From Spongilla lacustris (Eukaryota; Porifera; Demospongiae; Spongillida; Spongillidae), in contig OX442432.1 of NCBI GenBank assembly GCA_949361645.1, forward strand, positions 1,988,674 through 2,052,673: DNA of 64,000 nucleotides. The letters are read 5' to 3'. Shown here piece by piece: positions 14,662 through 37,385 of this stretch. The notes under the pieces are model-generated. The model did not search any database and had not been told where the DNA came from. It worked only from the letters and a program-made list of their open reading frames with translations. Position numbers and translations under genes: made by a program. Every line of letters begins with the position of its first letter. Within the stretch, counting starts at the first letter, position 1.

Positions 14662-15254
14662 ATGAAGGTTAAAAGCAACGTGGAGGCAGCCAGACGATTT
14701 ATGAACGACGAAGGAATAGTGGACGAGCCTATAGGTCTTGATCGATGGGTTTATTGCTTTCGTAGTCTTAGGAGTAGATGGGCTAAATTAAGCAAACGGC
14801 AGAAGAGCGAAAGTACAAAGAAGGCATTTATGGAGTTTCAGCAAGAAACCTGATGTTACCGATGAGCCAACTGTCAGATGAACATGAAGGAGATGAAGTG
14901 GAAGAGATCGAAAAAGAACAAGATAAAGCAAGTACCAGCACAATTGCTCCACTCGATGCACTGAGCCCTTGTCATTCCAAAAGGAGAACAGATGCTTTGT
15001 TTGCTCTATTGAAGGAGGAAGCAGATATGCAAAAAATAACAACTACTCAATTGTTAGGATACATGCTTCATAGGGAGAATTACATACATGACAGGGCTGG
15101 AGCCTCAGTAGGTCTCCAGTTGTTCCGCAAGGAAATGGTTAGCAGAGAGATAAGTTTAGATGAGGCTCTATTTATGCTATCTACTTACAAGCTTGGTCGG
15201 ACAGGGTATACTAGTCTTAGGCAGGAATTGAAAAAGTCTGAAAAAACAGGCTGA
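14662..15254 (+). CDS. Unrecognised protein in two frames (frameshift or unseen intron)
   Basis: An ATG at 14662 opens a 63-codon frame (MKVKSNVEAARRFMNDEGIV) ending at 14853. A second frame from 14853 runs to 15254 (133 codons) with an acidic stretch (DEHEGDEVEEIEKEQDK) and a probably helical region (LFALLKEEADMQKITTTQLL, then SLDEALFMLSTYKLGRTGY). The stop of the first overlaps the ATG of the second (TGATG). Composition suggests one gene shifted by one base, not two genes. I do not recognise the family. It starts right at the border of kinase copy C, which suggests a rearrangement point. Confidence 0.35.
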
Positions 15255-15636
15255 ATCAAGTAGTTGCCTTTCACTTGAGGATGGCCTATTAGAATCTATC
15301 TTTCTGAACTGAAATACATTTATGATTAAAAATTATGTTAGTTATCCTATGTATTTTTTTATTATAAAGTATAATGAATCTTGATTTTTTGCCTTGAATT
15401 TAATTAACTATTCTGGGATTTTAATTCCTGCATCATTTAGTACCTGTTTAGTGTAATATAATATGCCATTATCATTACAATAATGGAATTTATATAAATC
15501 TGTTAAACTTGATTAATCTGTCTTGATTTTATCGCATTAACTTTATTTAATAACTTACATTTATCTAATCACCTCATTATAAATCAGGATACAAACAAGT
15601 TGGTCATATTTGTATACAGTAATTTGAAAATGTCCT
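15255..15636. other. AT-rich spacer
   Basis: Very AT-rich, no coding frame, no clear repeat. Confidence 0.4.
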
Positions 15637-16143
15637 GGTCAGCTATGGTTTTAAACCACAGTGCCATCGTCAACCCCCTGTTAGTAGAGGTGAGCTGTTC
15701 AAGCTGCTAGGTTTTCTGCTTGCACTGACCAGAACACATTCAAAACGTCGAGATTTGTTCTCTGTTTATGATGGTCTCTTTCCAGCACCAAAGTTTGGAG
15801 AGCGGTTTGGTATTCATCAGCACCGAGTAGATGAGCTGCTGCAGCACATCTTGTTTGGAAAGGCTGTAGATGGGGATCCTGCACATGGAATACTATGTTT
15901 CATTGACCACTTCAATAAGTGTCGGGAAGAAGGTTACTATCCATCATGGTCCATTTGTGTGGATGAGTCTATGTCTGCATGGCGTGGAAAAGATGGAAAT
16001 TTTTGTAGCGATGGATGCCACATGTTACAAAGATAGCTAGAAAGCCCAAAGGAGTTGGTGCTGAGTTAAAGGATGCTGCTGACTCTGAGACCAACATTAT
16101 CATTCGCTTAGAGTTACAAGAAATATACATTTCTGACGTTTAA
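15637..16143 (+). pseudogene. piggyBac-like transposase fragment (DDE_Tnp_1_7)
   Basis: Open from about 15637: VSRGELFKLLGFLLALTRTH, GERFGIHQHRVDELLQHILF, IDHFNKCREEGYYPSWSICV, DESMSAWRGKDGNFCSDG, then after a one-base deletion at about 16019 PHVTKIARKPKGVGAELKDA to a stop at 16143. The DES/WRG block holds one of the piggyBac catalytic aspartates (cut-and-paste transposase acting at TTAA). The first third and the C-terminal third, including the cysteine-rich tail, are missing. The frameshift and truncation mean it is dead. It is unlike the inner element at 17887-19037, which retains only the C-terminal part. Confidence 0.75.
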
Positions 16144-16296: not shown

Positions 16297-17842
16297 ATGG
16301 CGGAGGAAGCGGTAACCGAACTCCTTCAAGGAATGGAATATATGAAGGTGTTGCGGATAGTGATAAAAGGGCAGGAGGAGACAGCGTCCAGACTAGCAAG
16401 AAATGCCACCAGGAAGGACACCTACACCTTTAAAAGAAAGGGTAATGAGCTGCAGCACCGCTTCAACGAGCAGCTCGTCAACAAGAATAATGAATGATTG
16501 TATCTATAGCTATTGCAACACACGTTCTTGTAAACTTCAATGTGGATGATTCCGTTTGTGCGGTGCCAGTAGGAAAAATAACACGTCCACCCACTGAGCA
16601 GCTGAAGTGTGGAGTACAATGCACTGTTCAGTGGGCTAGTGAAGTGGTATACGAAGGAAAGATCCTCTGTGTTGGTATGGTCAAGATATGCATGCTTGCT
16701 TCTCTTCTCATTATTGTTCTGGTTGGTGTTATTCAGGAGAGCGAGCAACTGTTAAAGCTGCAGAAGAGAAGGCTGTATGCGAAAAGGAGCAATCAACTGG
16801 ATCACGTGATGATGATGTTACCATGGTTGCCAACAAACCATCCTCAAGGAAGCGAAAAAGTGAAAATGATGCCAAAGAAAAGAAGATTGACAACAAGGTA
16901 CGTATGATTAATTGATATTTTTAAAACAATGATTTATTACACTGTATGTACTAACACCCTATAGAAGAAACAAACACGGGAAACTCCTTTTACTATCAAG
17001 TGCATTTCAGATCTCATTACCAAGGTTTGTTCTTAACAAACTGATGTACGAAATGTTTTTACTCTATCTTTTCTTTACAGGACTCAGATCATGTTGTAGT
17101 AACACAGCCAAATGCACCTCCTACCACCACAAACGTGTGCGCAATGTTTGTATTAAAATTGTACACGTGAGCGATATAGTGGCTATGTATGTATTTATGT
17201 ATGTATGTATTTGTAGGATGTGATGCTCATATATATTGTACAGGGCAGTGATGGCATGGCACAACATATAGAACACGTACAACATATTGCAGCCCCTGTT
17301 GAACAAGTAGACATGTCAAACACCATGTCTAGCTCAGTAAGATATATGCATGTAATGGCTTCAATCCATTGCAATGATGGAAATGTAATTCATACATGTA
17401 GGCATCAACAGCTAGCAGCAGTATGGATTTCTCCAGAAAAGGTTCCTTCATTCAAAGCACCACAAAGGTATATTGTAATTATAGTGAGTGAGTAAAAGTT
17501 GGATGAGATACATGTGAATGTGCCCGGGTTTATTTAGGTGATGACAATACCTGGACATGGAATGAATGGAGACAGCAACTTTTCTGAGCGAGAAATACTC
17601 AGTCCTAAGCATCTAATATCTGAGGTTTGTTTACATCTCCCCCCCCCCAATGCATACACCTGATGTAGTAATAGATGTACATGTACTCCCATGCATAGTT
17701 GTGGTTACCATGGAAATAGGTTATGTTTACAACATGTATTTACAGCTGCTACATCTTTTTAGACACACTGCTGCTGCTGTCATGATACATGCAAAGCAGA
17801 TGCTATTCTGAAAGCCATAGAAGAACAAGGAGTAGTTCTTAA
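16297..17842 (+). CDS. BEN-domain protein, 5' exons up to transposon insertion
   Basis: ATG at 16297 opens MAEEAVTELLQGMEY... . Exons with GT-AG borders follow: about 16510-16674 (VLVNFNVDDSVCAVPVGKI), 16737-16897 (basic, SSRKRKSENDAKEKK, nuclear-signal-like), 16965-17024, 17081-17134, 17244-17336, 17402-17467, 17538-17624, and from 17763 (THCCCCHDTCKADAILKAIE). All joins from 16510 on keep phase. Only the first join (16497 to about 16510) is unclear: a stop at 16495-16497 and no good donor, so a frameshift is possible. The VLV-x-F-x-D segment resembles the small N-terminal domain of invertebrate BEN proteins. The last exon breaks at TTAA 17839-17842 and resumes at 23299. BEN proteins bind DNA or chromatin in the nucleus. 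Confidence 0.6.
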
Positions 17843-17974
17843 TCATAGATTGACTGTGCGTTTGTGACTTAAGTCATATGACTTAAGTCACAAATCACTA
17901 ATTATATTCATGTGGTCTTTCAAAACTGAGCTACCTTCATGTGGTGGCTTGTGTAAACTGATAGGTACAGCTAC

Positions 17975-18775
17975 AAATCAGTGAATATATACATGTACAT
18001 GTAGAATGTGAGCAGCTGAATGTGTATGCAAGGCACTATATTTACACTGCAGCATCTGCAATATGCTTTACTAGACAAGTGCTTTGATCGCAGTCCACAT
18101 AGAGCCACGATTATTCCATTTGATGCATCTGAGCAAACACTGCAACAGTTCTTGCAGGGGCTCCTACAAACACTGCATAGTCTGCTTGCATAAGTAGCAG
18201 TGCACAGTTCAGAATCCTTGTTGTATAATGGAAGAGACTTTAGTGGTACAAAATTATGTATCATTTTCACTTTCGAGCCTTGTACGATGGTTAGCCTGTG
18301 TGCCTATGCTTATCTGCATTAGCAAGGCTTTGGCAACAGCCGGAGTGGCTCAGCATACTGCTTCCTGGGTGGAACTTCTTGTACAAGAGGTATGCATCAG
18401 TTTCCACAATCTCAAGAACTGTTGCCACAACACGGTTTGTCCAAGACTGGGTTTGCCATGCTGTTTCCAGTGCCAGCCTCCTTGACGCATCTGATTGTTG
18501 ATGTCTATAATCGATGCTGCATCATAATAGGATTCAACAATCTTCTTTCGCTTGACAGTTTTGTTAAATACTTCCGTCTGTCCTACCTCCTCCCCATCTT
18601 CACTTTTCTCCCAATCCCTTGGACTTCTTCGACCACCCCATCCAGTTCTTTTGTTGCAGACAGCCTTCCAAACCTTTGCTTTGCTGGCTTTTTCCCCAGA
18701 ACCTTGATTGCACTACACGATACACGATTACCAACCGAAAATGGCATTATAGTAGGAGATGCGCAAAACTAACGA
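17975..18775 (-). pseudogene. piggyBac transposase C-terminal part in inner element
   Basis: The minus strand encodes TVKRKKIVESYYDAASIIDI then NNQMRQ, and after a one-base shift RLALETAWQTQSWTNRVVAT and DAYLLYKKFHPGS, the end of the piggyBac catalytic core. Further on comes a cysteine-rich tail (RLCSVCRSPCKNCCSVC...) like the C-terminal zinc-binding domain that contacts transposon ends. An intron or frame change separates core and tail. The N-terminal two thirds of the protein are missing. Confidence 0.7.
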
Positions 18776-18865
18776 CGGCAGCAGACGCTTTTTATATGTA
18801 CGTAAAAATTAAACAGAAACTGTCCTGTGCGGTTGAAAGTGCAGTGCAATCCCTATCCTATTCAT

Positions 18866-18945
18866 AAAGTACAAGCGTCATGAAAGGAAAACGCTGCAAG
18901 CGTCATAAAGGGAAAAAGTTGCAAGCGTCATGAAAGAAAAAATTC
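18866..18945. repeat. Subterminal direct repeats of inner element
   Basis: Three spaced copies of GCAAGCGTCATGAAAG or close variants lie just inside the right terminal repeat. Such subterminal repeats often serve as transposase binding sites; that role is inferred. Confidence 0.6.
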
Positions 18946-19794
18946 CTAGCTAGCTGTACCGATCAGTTTACACAATCCACCACATGAAGGTAGCTAAGTT
19001 TTGAAAGGCCACATGAATATAATTAGTGATTTGTGACTTAAAGGAGAAGTTGCCACGTAAATAGTTACCATTGCGCTGCGCGAACCGATGCGCAGAACCC
19101 GCTATAAAAGGCGCTAGACTGCTCGGGGACTTTCCTCAAATACGTCATGACTAAATGGCGAAAGGTTGGTCGTTTTGTAGTTGCGTTTTCAATCGGTAAC
19201 CCTGTTACTTTTTGGACCAAAAAACACAGAGGCAATTGGTTATCTATGTAGCTTTTCACAAAAGAAATACACCAGTATAGGCCGATCGTGATCGAGTTCT
19301 CTGCGATCCATGCCACATGTACGTTGTGCGCTACAACAGGACGTGCGAGTACTATACAGGCCTATTTCATTGTACTGAGTCTCGACTGATCTTATATAGA
19401 CTTTTACTTTCATCGTCGAATCTGTTCACCGAGTACTAGAACTGTTACTTGAAGCGGTAACGATGTGCGCTGTAAACCGCATACGTCTCTCTTACTCTTA
19501 CGCCCGGCTTATACTTATATTACCATCACCCAGGCCAGGTATAAACGAACAAAACATCACAATGAAACACAAAAAGAAGGCTGTAACAAACATAGCGTTA
19601 CGTATTGCTACCCCTGGCCCTGGTTCGCTTGCTATCTCCAGCCACATCTTCACGTGCTTCAGTTGTTTTCCCCGTTTGGTATGCTGGCAATGGCACAAAC
19701 ATTGATAACTGATGTTCCACAAAATGCAACAAGTAAAGATATGTATATAGGTATTTCAGACAGCAGATCATTGAGGTAAAGGCCAGTGTGAGAG

Positions 19795-20130
19795 GTAGAG
19801 GATGTGAGTGTGAGTGTGAATGTGGGTGGAGGTGTGAGTATGGGTGGAGGTGTGATGAGTATGGGTGGTGTATGTATGGGTAAAGGTGCAAGTGTGAGTT
19901 GCATGAGGTATGAGTGGGTGGAGGGGAGGTATGAATGGCATGTGAGTTTGGGTGTAAGTATGAGTATGGGCGGAGGCGGAGGTAGTGAGTATGTGTGGAG
20001 GCGTGACTATGGGTGAATGTATATACAAATGAGGGTGAGGTGTATGGGTGGAGGTATGGATGTGGGTAGGGATATGAGTATGTGAGTATGGGTGGAGGTG
20101 GAGGTAGTGAAGGTGGTATAGGTGGAGTGG
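19795..20130. repeat. G-rich minisatellite inside outer transposon
   Basis: Irregular units of GGTGGAGGTGTGAGTATG type over about 330 bases, expanded within the element. Open frames on both strands through it are composition artefacts. Confidence 0.7.
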
Positions 20131-20604
20131 GGTGAGTCACAAACAATTTCATTCTTGATGATGACTCTAAATAAAGCCTTGTGGGCCCATCAAATGTAGC
20201 TCATTATAGAAGGTGTGGTGCAAGACAAGTTAGCAAACACAGAAACAAACACCCACACCCACATGTATGTTGATGCATCTGGTGGGGGGGGACAATGTAT
20301 TAATGTCAAAAACCTAGTGAGGATATTGTGAGATCCCAATGTATGATACACATATGAACATATTCTCGGAGCAGTTACAAGTGTATTATATATCACCTTA
20401 CAGATATAGGATAGCATGTACAATTTCACAATACATATCCATACCTTACAACTTCATGAATCAATATCATCATCCTCTTGGTATTCTTCGCTTTCATTGT
20501 CCACATACTCTCCATCTGAATCATCGGGTGACACCAACTCGTCAATTGCATCATCCTCCTCCTCAAGTGACCTAGTATAAGGGTGAATTGTATAAGGATT
20601 TGTT

Positions 20605-23023
20605 GCCATCTTTAGCTACATGTAAACCTACTGTAAAGATGAGATATTCTTCAGGATGTACGCATTCCAGATGTTACGTACGAATTGAAAGGTTTTCTTC
20701 TTTAATACATTGTAAGTGCTATGATGGTCCGGTCGGCGAACATCAAGGTATTCACCATGACTTGTTGATGCCCGTTGTGTGTTTTCATTCTAAAAGAAGT
20801 GGTCATAATGTTCACAGCCATCACATGCACAACACTCACCCAATCCATCTTGGGCAGGTAGGTTAGTTGCTGGTGGTTAAATGACTCCATCCAGAAGGTG
20901 TCTCGACACTGGAAAAAGGACCTAATTTAGATATAACTAGCAATGCCTTCATAAAGCTGCATACACGACAGAATGACTCAGCAAAGCGGTAGATAAGGGT
21001 TCTCTGCAGTGCATCCTCATATGCTTGAATGGCTTCAGGCATAGTCAGAATCTTCCTCTTTGGGTGGTAACCTGGCTGGCGACAACGACTTTCTGAGTGG
21101 CAATTAAGGTGGTGACCCTAGTGGAAGCAACAAAAAAAAAAAAACATTCACACACACACAACGACCGGACCATCATTGTTGCATGTATAAAGTGCACACT
21201 ACACATGTATGCATGCACACCTATACCTGAAAGTGCTGGCTTATATTCATAATCATGTTGCATAGAATGTCAGGGTTGCCAGCACAGTTCTTCATGCACC
21301 AGTACAGGTGTACTTTGGTACTCCTTGCTGAAAAAAAAAAAGGATCAATACATTAAATGATTACAGGTGCATGCTGGTACTCCTTGCTGAAAAAAAAAAG
21401 GACAGCGCAGCTCATACCCTTGTCTGAAAGTTCAGCAAACCATGTCTTATCTCTAGTTTTAACAGTCCCAGCACAGATCTTTTCAGCTCTTTAGCCACAT
21501 TCTTCGTGCCTGCATGATTGCAATCAATACACACCAAATAAAATTTGATACCATACCATGCCATGTGTCATAAGAATTAACCAATCCAAGTTGTTCAACA
21601 TACGTCTTTATGGTGGACTGGTAGTCATGGGCTACCTCTGTGACGTTCAACCCTACATTATAAATTGGATGCATATATGTATGTGTAAATATTTAAAATA
21701 ATAACACAAACCTCTGGGTAAGACAACTTTCGTACATGCCACCTCTCTAGTCTGAGCTACTCTGTGCTCTGGTCTAGAGAGAGTGGTGATCCTAACAATC
21801 CTATGTGTACTGCTTTGCAAAACTATAAAAACACAGAGTACAAACATGCCATACAGGGTACTGTTGAGTGGTATGCATTCGCACTAGAATCATGCCGTGC
21901 ATCAGTGATGACCCACTGTTATAAACAGATAAATTAAATCGATTGTATAAACCACGAGAAAACACATCATACCTCTCCACTTGTGGCGTACTCAAGGTTT
22001 GCCTTCACACATTGCACTGCTGCATTCATAGATTCTTCTGCTGAATCTGCTATAATTTGCTGGTACTGTCTGTCTATGTATACTTAAGAACCAGATTACA
22101 ACATTACATCTATCACCAACGTATTACTAGTTAGTCATCTGTACCTACCTGAATGGATGTATTTATATGACACTACACCTATCTCTGCAAACTTGCAAAA
22201 GTTCATGAACTGAGATGGCAACATGCCAGCACAGGTAAAGGCATGGATGAGCCTACATGCATGGAGTGCAAGCAAAATTATTACTAGATGTTGTGCAGTA
22301 CATGAGCATAGCTACTTGCTTTTGGCTTGCCAAGTAGTGACCCGCAAGAACTCTTGAAGAAGCCCAAGTGCGAGCCACTTTGCAATGTGGGCAGACAAAG
22401 CGAATTCGCACAATGCCTCCTTTCTACACATTCAAACGAATAGAATGCAACCAGCATAGGAGGATTTATGTACCTTTACAAAGGACTCCAGCTGCCAAGT
22501 GGGACGTGGTCTACAGCAGTGTTGCTGTACCAAGCCCTTACAGAGACACCTATTAGACTTGTGCTCAACCACATAGAGCCTCTGGTCGTCTTTGTCTTCA
22601 TCTCCTGTGTACATGCCTATATAAGAAAGGGCAGCATAAAATCCAATGCACGCTGGCCTTTTATTCTATAACTATGCATGCATGTGCATATACGCGTACC
22701 GGCGTATGATACATTGTATGTCTACTGTATGTTATGAAGTTATTAGGCCTCGATACATTTATAAGAGTATAGTACACGTACCGGCTGTGTCCAAGAAGGA
22801 ATGAGTGGACTGAATGGTGGAGGGGGCCCGGGGCCGTCGATGGGATCGAAAGCACAATGTCCAGCATCGCATTCAACAGGGCGGCATTATCTGGCCTTTG
22901 GGAGGTACTTTCATCAGGAAAAAGGATACGCCTGGCACTGTCTACACGGAGTTTGATGGCATCCTTCTCCGCCTCAGATGAGAAAGTCATTCCAAGCGAG
23001 AACCTACATCCCGCTGTCGCCAT
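20605..23023 (-). CDS. Kolobok-like DDE transposase (multi-exon)
   Basis: ATG at 23023. Approximate exon blocks, high to low: 23023-22783 (MATAGCRFSLGMTFSS), 22604-22474 (DEDKDDQRLYVVEHK), 22422-22315 (IVRIRFVCPHCKVA), 22255-22148 (LIHAFTCAGMLPSQFMNF), 22080-21990 (ADSAEESMNAAVQCVK), 21914-21856 (WVITDARHDSSANAYHS, candidate first Asp), 21825-21705, 21655-21560 (VTEVAHDYQSTIK, second Asp; NSYDTWHG), 21508-21425 (TKNVAKELK), 21335-21235 (KVHLYWCMKNCAGN), 21118-20975 (CRQPGYHPKRKILTMPEA), 20912-20850 (RDTFWMESFNHQQLTYLPK, Glu of DDE), 20810-20605 (NENTQRAST). The order matches invertebrate TTAA-type DDE transposases. A one-base slip after KELK may inactivate it. TATAAAA lies about 210 bases upstream. 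Most introns carry GT-AG; not every phase was verified. Confidence 0.65.
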
Positions 23024-23229
23024 ATTTACCAGTTATCTTCACGTGCCCGGTAATTACATTAATAGTACAAAGGACGCGTTCGAGTTATGAGCTTAACGAT
23101 TAGTTTTACTGGACTGTGTGTGTTTTATAGACGTGTCACTGTGTAGCAGGACCCGGATACGGTTCACAGAACGCCATATTTGGCCGCTTAAAACCGGCTG
23201 GCCGGTCAAAAATTGAGCAGTCTACGCCC

Positions 23230-23236
23230 TTTTATA
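23230..23236 (-). promoter_or_regulatory. TATA box of the Kolobok-like transposase
   Basis: TATAAAA on the minus strand, 207 bases before the transposase ATG. It is mirrored by TATAAAA at 19103-19109 inside the left end, with shared flanks (TAGACTGCTC). Confidence 0.45.
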
Positions 23237-23298
23237 CCGCCTCTTCTCCTTTAAGTCATATGACTTAAGTCACAAACGCACGGTCAATCTATGATTAA

Positions 23299-24240
23299 AC
23301 AGCTGAAGGAAATAACTGAAAAGTTTAGACCTGCTTTGCCACCACCAACAATCCAGCACCCACCAATATCAGCATCATCCATCCAGCCCCCACCATCATC
23401 AATCCAGCCCCCACCATCATCAATCCAGCCCCCACCATCATCAATCCAGCCCCCACTATATCTTCCATCCAGCCCCCACCATCTTCCATCCAGCCCCCAC
23501 CATCTTCCATCCAGCCCCCACCATCTTCCATCCAGCCCCCACCATCTTCCATCCAGCCCCCACCATCTTCCATCCAGCCCCCACCATCTTCCATCCAGCC
23601 CCCACCATCTTCCATCCAGCCCCCACCATCTTCCATCCAGCCCCCACCATCTTCCATCCAGCCCCCACCATCATCAATCCAGCCCCTACCATCACCACAG
23701 TCATTCCAACCCATCACTATTAGTGACGATTAATATTATCACCACTGCAATCTCCGATCCAACTGCCACCATCGTCATATGGCAATTTCACCTCAACTCC
23801 TTCACAAGATCCACCTCATGAAAAGCACCAGTCATCTTCTAATGATCAGTCTAATGAAGACAGCTTCAGAATAGATTCGGATGATGCTGTAGCCTTATTG
23901 GATTCCAATTCCTTCCTAAGCAAAATGCGGATGAAGAGCTGCTCACGGAAAAATTTTGCTGCTAATTTGGTTAGAGCAGTGTATACGGACTCTGAAAGGG
24001 CAATGAGCAACGTAAATGGAAGGAACGGCAAGAATCAGCTGGATCCTATAAGGATGAAGGCCATAAAGGAAGCTATATTTAAAATCTACCCCTGCTCCAC
24101 AGGAGAAACTATACCAACTGAATGGGCTGACTGCTAGTATGAGACATGTCGACGCCTCAATCGACCTGGAAAGGCGGCCAAAACATACATTGTCCCCATG
24201 GAAATGCACCAAATTGCCGTGCTTTGTATATTCCATGTTG
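23299..24240 (+). CDS. BEN-domain protein, 3' part with proline-rich array and BEN domain
   Basis: Resumes the interrupted exon in frame (KQLKEITEKFRPALPPPT). A 21-bp tandem array coding IQPPPSS-type repeats follows (23370-23690). From about 23850 comes a BEN domain: VALLDSNSFLSKMRMKS, NFAANLVRAVYTDSERAMSN, LDPIRMKAIKEAIFKIYP, TEWADC. Frames do not agree all the way. The phase slips at about 23455 where the array unit degenerates (CCACTATATC) and again near 23730. A TAG at 24135-24137 follows TEWADC, while YETCRRLNRPGKA, resembling the BEN C-terminal end, lies just beyond it. So the 3' half may be pseudogenised after the insertion, or contains an intron or stop that I misplace. Confidence 0.55.
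23370..23690 (+). repeat. 21-bp coding minisatellite (proline-rich)
   Basis: Ten near-identical 21-base units (CTTCCATCCAGCCCCCACCA + T) flanked by four or five diverged units with ATCATCAATCC. In the BEN gene frame they code IQPPPSS. The unit length is a multiple of three, so copy-number changes preserve frame. Confidence 0.85.
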
Positions 24241-24700
24241 TATGGTTCTTAAAGTACAAACTTTTTAATTTATAATCATTTTCTCAAACTTAGTCATTTC
24301 AGTAAGATAGAACTTTATCTAGGTCTTAGGTCATGGATACATTTTACACAAAAGAGTAATTTCATAATGGGCTTTATGTTTGGCACAAATTAAGGACTAA
24401 AAGTAGTAACTGCTAAAAAAAAAAATTACATCTCTAAGCAAACCAAACTTATCATAGGTAGTTGCTATCACTCCTCACATATTGTACTGATCACCTTTTT
24501 AAGGGTTTTAAGTAAGGGTCATCCCAGGCAGTCATGTTTTATCCTGTGTTTTGTTTAAACACTACATAACAGTACTATCATAACTACTATCAAAACCACC
24601 AATTTACACATAAATGTTTAATAAACTCCAGGCTTCTTTTGGTCACCAATATATGCAGCATCAGAGATAATAAATTATCTCTAGTTACAAGGAGGAATAC
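24241..24700. other. AT-rich 3' flank of BEN gene
   Basis: Likely 3' UTR and spacer; no coding block or repeat seen. Confidence 0.35.
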
Positions 24701-35323: not shown

Positions 35324-35693
35324 TTTAAAGTTTTGGTGAATTTAATAAATAAATACTACATGTACATGTCAACACGTTGTGCGGAGGCGTGTACGATTGC
35401 TGACCGATGTTAAAGTTAACGCAATGCCTCTTACCTCGCAGTATTCGATGATTGAGGTTCTCCATTAAAATTAAGATCTCGACTGTATCACCATTGAAGT
35501 TTATTTCTGAAACGGTGCTGCATGTCTACGACTCAGGTAAGTTGAAGTATAAACAAAACATCATCGTATAAAGCGCCGCTTTTTAAATGGAGGCAGTGGT
35601 CAACCCATATACCGCGGTGTCTGTAAACCAATTCTTATAGCTACTAGAGGCACCCGTGTCTTCCACCTCCCTCTCTTCATCCCATAACTCCCT

Positions 35694-36535
35694 CCTCCCT
35701 CCCTCCCTCCCTCCCTCCCTCCCTCCCTCCCTCCCTCCCTCCCTCCCTCCCTCCCTCCCTCCCTCCCTCCCTCCCTCCCTCCCTCCCTCCCTCCCTCCCT
35801 CCCTCCCTCCCTCCCTCCCTCCCTCCCTCCCTCCCTCCCTCCCTCCCTCCCTCCCTCCCTCCCTCCCTCCCTCCCTCCCTCCCTCCCTCCCTCCCTCCCT
35901 CCCTCCCTCCCTCCCTCCCTCCCTCCCTCCCTCCCTCCCTCCCTCCCTCCCTCCCTCCCTCCCTCCCTCCCTCCCTCCCTCCCTCCCTCCCTCCCTCCCT
36001 CCCTCCCTCCCTCCCTCCCTCCCTCCCTCCCTCCCTCCCTCCCTCCCTCCCTCCCTCCCTCCCTCCCTCCCTCCCTCCCTCCCTCCCTCCCTCCCTCCCT
36101 CCCTCCCTCCCTCCCTCCCTCCCTCCCTCCCTCCCTCCCTCCCTCCCTCCCTCCCTCCCTCCCTCCCTCCCTCCCTCCCTCCCTCCCTCCCTCCCTCCCT
36201 CCCTCCCTCCCTCCCTCCCTCCCTCCCTCCCTCCCTCCCTCCCTCCCTCCCTCCCTCCCTCCCTCCCTCCCTCCCTCCCTCCCTCCCTCCCTCCCTCCCT
36301 CCCTCCCTCCCTCCCTCCCTCCCTCCCTCCCTCCCTCCCTCCCTCCCTCCCTCCCTCCCTCCCTCCCTCCCTCCCTCCCTCCCTCCCTCCCTCCCTCCCT
36401 CCCTCCCTCCCTCCCTCCCTCCCTCCCTCCCTCCCTCCCTCCCTCCCTCCCTCCCTCCCTCCCTCCCTCCCTCCCTCCCTCCCTCCCTCCCTCCCTCCCT
36501 CCCTCCCTCCCTCCCTCCCTCCCTCCCTCCCTCCC
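35694..36535. repeat. (CCCT)n tract, about 210 units
   Basis: About 840 bases of essentially perfect CCCT repeat (GGGA on the other strand). It makes long spurious frames (Ser-Leu-Pro-Pro or Glu-Gly-Gly-Arg) on both strands. One-strand purine purity and G-triplets allow triplex or quadruplex structures. Confidence 0.95.
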
Positions 36536-37385
36536 TTTTGTTGTGTTGGTCATGCTTGTAACCCAAACAGTATAATTGATGTTCAATGCACTCTGGCACA
36601 CATGAATTGCATGCACAAAACGAGGGGCGAAAGTGCCAATTGAAGTTGTGCAATAAAATTGCAGCAGGTCTTTAAAAGAAAAAACATACGCCTTGTATTG
36701 CCTTTGGTCCCATCACGTTGTGGGCTGCTGCATAAAGAGAGCTTTGTTTGAAGCAAAGGAACTTTGGTGACCTGGCAAGTGACAATCCATCTAAATTTTT
36801 TTTTAGAGGTGGTCTTGTTTTCTTGGATGCTCTAGACATGTTTCCTTGTATACAGCACATGTATTTGAATAGCTTCACAATAGAAGTCATGTGCAGGCTT
36901 TGTAAGGTGTCTAATTCCAGGCAGCTTGTGGTTTATATGATGCATTCACCCTTCCAAGGTCATTAGAGATTTTGTTGGCTCTCCACTTATACTACTGCAG
37001 TTACTCACTTATCAGGTACTCCATATCAGACCACATGCTGTGCTAAGTGACACTAAAACAGATTAAGAACCACTTTGGTTTACATTGCATATCATACCTA
37101 ATACCAAGGGAAACTTTGAGACCTTATGATTTTACATTTACTAATTCATTAGTATGAGAATTCCTGATACATGTAAGCTTGTAACTACACCCCCCAAAGC
37201 CCTTCAGCCCTTGTATGCAATATTGGACAGTAATGCCATTGTCTAAGTTATATGAATAGGTTGTGATAGCTGAATGAGCCTTCATGGTCACTCATATCAC
37301 ATGATGATTGCCTCATAACCTGTTGGTCACCATGGTAATCACCATTTGGGCTACAAAGCTCTTACATATGAGGTGCAGTGGAGGG
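36536..37385. other. Spacer, upstream part of START gene
   Basis: No convincing exon identified; missing 5' exons of the START gene may lie here or further left. Confidence 0.35.

Follow-up and report, generated by a model that had tools for sequence, protein, structure and literature searches.

A BEN-family gene copy in the sponge Spongilla lacustris has an interrupted coding exon: what lies in it, and how did it get there? The copy sits in a 64,000-nucleotide stretch of DNA (the window; C19:1988674-2052673 of the 248.56-Mb, 51-contig assembly that was searched), and a first-pass annotation had read the interruption as a single 5.4-kb inverted-repeat transposon whose removal restores the reading frame exactly. 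The single element was not borne out, as the bracketed DNA consists of two element families, one nested in the other. We are highly confident that two different cut-and-paste transposons, both specific for TTAA, entered a duplicated and decaying BEN-family gene in two nested steps: a short piggyBac-like element, A, in the exon, and then a Kolobok-like element, B, within A.

The insertion site and its empty paralogues

The insert is bracketed by TTAA at 17839..17842 and 23295..23298, a target-site duplication of a motif that stands once in an empty paralogue on C1, and its two ends form 48-bp inverted repeats that are 98% complementary; the bracketing and the repeats had both been proposed in the first-pass annotation. 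So had the reading GVV-L-KQLKE on joining 17842 to 23299, and the joined sequence does give it: the frame ...AIEEQGVV-L-KQLKEITEKF... runs on, open, into PPPSSIQ repeats, and the junction reads ...AIEEQGVV-L-KQLKEITEKFRPALPPP....

DNA searches with the two flanks lead to one paralogue on C1, the left flank matching C1:22598113-22598479 at 90% identity and the right flank C1:22598573-22598988 at 79% identity. Aligned with the joined flanks, this paralogue (C1:22598113-22598988) reads GTAGTTCTTAAACAGCT through the site, with one TTAA, and it carries the empty sequence that had been predicted to the base. It supports the proposal that a BEN-family gene copy recently received a base-precise TTAA insertion within a coding exon; the window copy has diverged from this paralogue by about 10%. 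A 43-residue junction probe (E 1e-3) found five places, namely, the two window halves apart and the C1, C14, and C15 copies continuous, so that all three junction-spanning matches outside the window are uninterrupted. The DNA match of a further paralogue, on C13, stops at window position 17809, short of the site, and is uninformative on the insertion. Because the left end of the insert falls in a repeat family (see below) and the paralogue holds the predicted empty sequence, the insertion pattern exceeds what chance would be expected to produce.

Two of these paralogues have noteworthy surroundings. Upstream of the empty C1 copy (L080, 99-1730) lie adjoining frames that look by eye like reverse transcriptase/RNase H and a recombinase, and in the C15 copy (L082, C15:4279000-4284500) the coiled stretch lies ~2 kb from the BEN end, as if independently interrupted.

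Element A, a piggyBac-like family

Element A comprises the left part of the insert (17839..19041) and the outer 44 bp of its own right inverted repeat (23255..23298), 1247 bp in total. Its left inverted repeat spans ~135 bp (17839-17973), and the inner part of the right repeat lies at 18951..19041, up to the TTAA used by B. Uninterrupted full-length copies elsewhere, the alignment of the terminal inverted repeats, and the minus-strand frames point to a piggyBac-like, internally deleted element with a minus-strand transposase remnant.

The family is abundant and young. A query of the insert's first 122 bases gives at least 40 matches of 94% identity or higher across almost its entire length, the window included; scoring covered 40 of 208 candidates, and copy counts are lower bounds. 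Nine distinct full-length copies (1-1247) are present among the fetched loci, all without B, and TTAA stands at both ends of every one of them (9/9) as well as of the window copy. Their 10-bp flanks are mutually different, that of the C8 copy being A-like. Against a ten-copy consensus that includes it, the window copy differs at 4 of 1247 positions (0.32%), and the other nine differ at 1 to 42.

Longer relatives suggest where the transposase came from. An open frame of 671 codons survives in the ~2.53-kb copies on C7 and C20; a long copy on C3 is frame-broken, and one on C5 was seen in part only. The 664-amino-acid C20 product matches Pfam DDE_Tnp_1_7 (138.3 bits; cut-off, 22.4) and resembles the solved piggyBac structure 6x67 (E 1.8e-8), to which two of its regions, VDES and SADS, align; these may hold two of the catalytic aspartates, and the alignment gives no clear counterpart of the third. 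In the short form, a central ~1.3 kb flanked by TTCA microhomologies has been deleted, and the length difference at A position 761-764, once considered an insertion, is this deletion. Also rejected was a partition in which the 1155 bp at 17883-19041 are an insertion in a 4.3-kb element: A is intact elsewhere, and B starts at its own TTAA.

Element B, a Kolobok-like transposon inside A

Element B occupies 19038..23254 (4217 bp, both TTAA included) and is read as a Kolobok-like DNA transposon whose transposase has several exons on the minus strand, given sibling copies that begin and end at or near its boundary and homologues in Ephydatia. The predicted transposase exons, drawn by eye, fall within 20866..23023 (minus strand), and their frame is broken in the window copy at its differences from its siblings. 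A TG-rich imperfect minisatellite lies at 19793..20121. Over 2155 nt, the window copy departs from a seven-sibling majority by 3 substitutions and 3 insertion/deletion columns, and at five of these six it differs from all seven.

The siblings also mark the ends. When the right end was searched, the long matches of 16 sibling loci began between query positions 30 and 52, where 45 is the position of B's own TTAA; when the left end was searched, 16 siblings scoring over 600 bits began between positions 1 and 15. Of the 11 sibling loci inspected, 9 have the right end exactly as TTAA-AGGAGAAG. When six siblings were compared, the TTAA duplication was exact on both sides in C9a, C9b, and C1, as it is in the window; the C25 and C2 siblings differ on the left, and the left end of the C16 sibling was not found.

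No Pfam family matched the 340-residue set of predicted B exons, which does have 65 relatives at E 1e-3 or better. These are mostly sponge proteins by name or label, with two named coral proteins and some unnamed ones; the closest, at 77% identity, is P0001 of Ephydatia muelleri, and Halichondria has relatives too. A DTWH sequence of the C/D-x-x-H type occurs in the window frame and in the relatives P0003, P0011, and P0022, the catalytic residues having been assigned by eye. Pfam found no THAP domain in P0003 or P0011, nor in the predicted B exons, and because of this B is filed as Kolobok-like. MuDR/Mutator elements, also considered for B, make long target duplications, of 8-11 bp; the duplication of B is the 4-bp TTAA and does not fit them.

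Order of the two insertions

It might be supposed that a 5.46-kb composite, A already holding B, was transposed into the exon as a single unit, since the 48-bp repeats at the two outer ends match each other and TTAA is the target of both families. The searches make this quite improbable. In the right-end search for B, A's outer 44 bases are covered only in the window row, so that B is joined to them nowhere else in that search, and the nine full-length A copies described above are free of B. Five sibling B sites could be joined across the element, and of these only the one on C25 lies in an A relative (80-83% identity); the match at C9b extends over only 20 bases and is at chance level.

The nested, two-step insertion is accordingly the reading that we retain. 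The 1247-bp, nonautonomous A integrated at the exon TTAA, as the empty paralogue shows, presumably mobilized by transposase from its piggyBac-like parent of 2.53 kb. The 4.2-kb B then integrated at a TTAA within A's right inverted repeat, as the sibling copies show. Because A and B both duplicate their target, removal is locally exact.

The choice of site by B raises a further possibility. Besides those at its ends, A has TTAA at positions 31, 45, 1200, and 1214 of its repeats; two such extra sites lie within the palindrome GACTTAAGTCATATGACTTAAGTC in the inverted repeats, and B entered the window copy at position 1200. A copies on C4 and C8 themselves sit in A-like repeats, and the C25 sibling of B has already been mentioned. 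The palindromic TTAA sites could conceivably serve as landing pads for other TTAA transposons, a suggestion that we regard as doubtful on the present sequences. If it is true, one superfamily parasitizes the ends of another.

The host copy and its decay

The interrupted gene lies on the plus strand. Its 5' exons and introns (16494..17842; boundaries drawn by eye from AG/GT sites) end in the interrupted exon, which starts near 17765; the alignment to the C1 paralogue covers 16507-17073 and 17217-17842. Beyond the insert, the exon continues at 23299..23731 with a proline-rich tandem array of 21-bp units (23373-23693) in which one 23-nt unit, at about 23440-23462, shifts the frame. The BEN-domain segment (23727..24137) follows in another frame and ends at a TAG (24135-24137); near 23,730 the window copy is one base short of C1. 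The claim that removal restores the frame therefore stands locally, at the join; overall it fails, as the window copy has two further frame shifts and a stop, and the reopened frame could extend to the BEN domain only through splicing. Frame restoration on removal, moreover, follows from any precise TTAA insertion and is no proof of a functional host gene.

The BEN segment scores 22.1 bits against Pfam BEN, under the 23.2 cut-off, and is 61% identical over 79 residues to a C7 homologue that itself scores 26.7 bits. That homologue (L085) is a single 352-residue frame with a coiled-looking stretch (by eye), a repetitive linker, and the BEN domain, a layout that the window copy has split over three frames. 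Neither the stitched window host protein (2052 candidates) nor the C7 BEN region (2 candidates) found a relative in the protein collection at E 1e-3.

A second alternative is that the insert is tolerated as an intron, since splicing from a GT near 17831 to an AG near 23302 would be in frame (GGA|GTAGTT ... AAACAG|CTGAAG, by sequence inspection only). The donor is weak by eye and the downstream frame is broken regardless, and we consider such splicing extremely improbable.

From 17300 on, the coding stretches are identical to C1 at 574 of 644 positions and the two introns at 311 of 336, with boundaries drawn by eye and the tandem array (23341-23699) and everything before 17300 excluded. Single coding stretches range from 85.3% (BEN, 215/252) to 96.1% (17765-17842, 74/77). 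No overall constraint on the exons is visible since the duplication, and A, given its distance from consensus, is far younger than the duplication. Because the exons overall have diverged from C1 as much as the introns, the host copy was most likely a pseudogene before A arrived. The opposite order, in which the gene was intact when A entered, the insertion killed a working gene, and the other lesions came later, could draw on the identity that the BEN segment still shares with the open C7 homologue, on the 74/77 of the interrupted exon part, and on the fact that one sequence cannot reveal order. Set against the exon and intron figures and the youth of A, it seems improbable. The most economical order would be duplication, decay, A, and B.

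Several observations weigh against parts of this account. The empty C1 copy is a paralogue rather than an allele and is itself frame-broken. The exon part 17765-17842 lies above both introns in identity, the other coding stretches lying at or below them, and decay before insertion is a step drawn from rates and not observed. Two older B siblings (L040 and L042) deviate from the exact TTAA-AGGAGAAG end, and the long B relatives P0003 and P0011 carry only PF20700, which Pfam labels Mutator-like. The ends of A are TTAA-TCATAG, with repeats of ~135 bp at 96%, and lack the usual piggyBac form, short repeats of 12-19 bp with CC[C/T]T at the terminus; A is therefore classed as piggyBac-like, not as canonical piggyBac.

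In sum, the locus is ordinary transposon biology, unusually well resolved. Two young TTAA transposon families of a sponge are caught here at base resolution, next to the evidence of an empty paralogue, and the site is one at which an empty allele can be sought.

Neighborhood of the locus

Directly upstream of the BEN gene, in 14853-16036, lies a fragment of another piggyBac-type transposase (15755-16033; DDE_Tnp_1_7, 17.3 bits, below the cut-off). The frame 14853-15251 has no Pfam match, and 15956-16100 resembles the long A family at about 73%. On the 3' side of the BEN exon, 24186-24299 resembles, at about 90%, the ends of an inverted-repeat family of 3.7 kb (C10, C2, and C1); no partner end was found within the window, and the idea that the BEN exon is part of a mobile element was set aside. 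Elsewhere in the genome, three BEN-domain loci (C1:2375696, C2:5471973, and C3:14473699) score equally, each with an open frame of 160-166 residues, which suggests recent copies or a mobile carrier of the BEN domain. An 849-bp, near-perfect CTCC tetranucleotide array lies at 35688-36536.

Comparison with known systems

Within the same genome, the window host copy is like the C7 BEN gene in its coiled-looking stretch, repetitive linker, and BEN domain; the window and C1 copies differ from that gene in being frame-broken, the C7 gene being a single frame.

Element A is like piggyBac and its miniature inverted-repeat transposable elements (MITEs) in its TTAA target and footprint-free arithmetic (PMC2872659), and in having DDE_Tnp_1_7 in longer family members and short, internally deleted derivatives. 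It is unlike piggyBac in that it starts with TCAT, not CC[C/T]T, and in that its repeats measure ~135 bp, not 12-19 bp (PMC2872659). For the CMITEs of corals, insertion of a MITE at the TTAA of another mobile element (CMITE-IN) has already been described, as have tandem arrays, and A resembles them in both respects (PMC2872659).

Kolobok elements have TTAA sites, 5'-RR...YY-3' ends, and a C/D-x-x-H motif between the second D and the last E (PMC9587614), and sponges are among their listed hosts. A THAP domain is usual in them (PMC6004289), and B is unlike them in that its relatives P0003 and P0011 lack a Pfam THAP domain and bear the Mutator-like PF20700 label. It is like them in its TTAA sites, its AG...CT ends, which follow the 5'-RR and YY-3' rule, and its D-x-x-H motif (PMC9587614). 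Furthermore, the first eight terminal bases of B, AGGAGAAG, are also those with which the left repeat of Xenopus XKol group A2 begins (PMC6004289).

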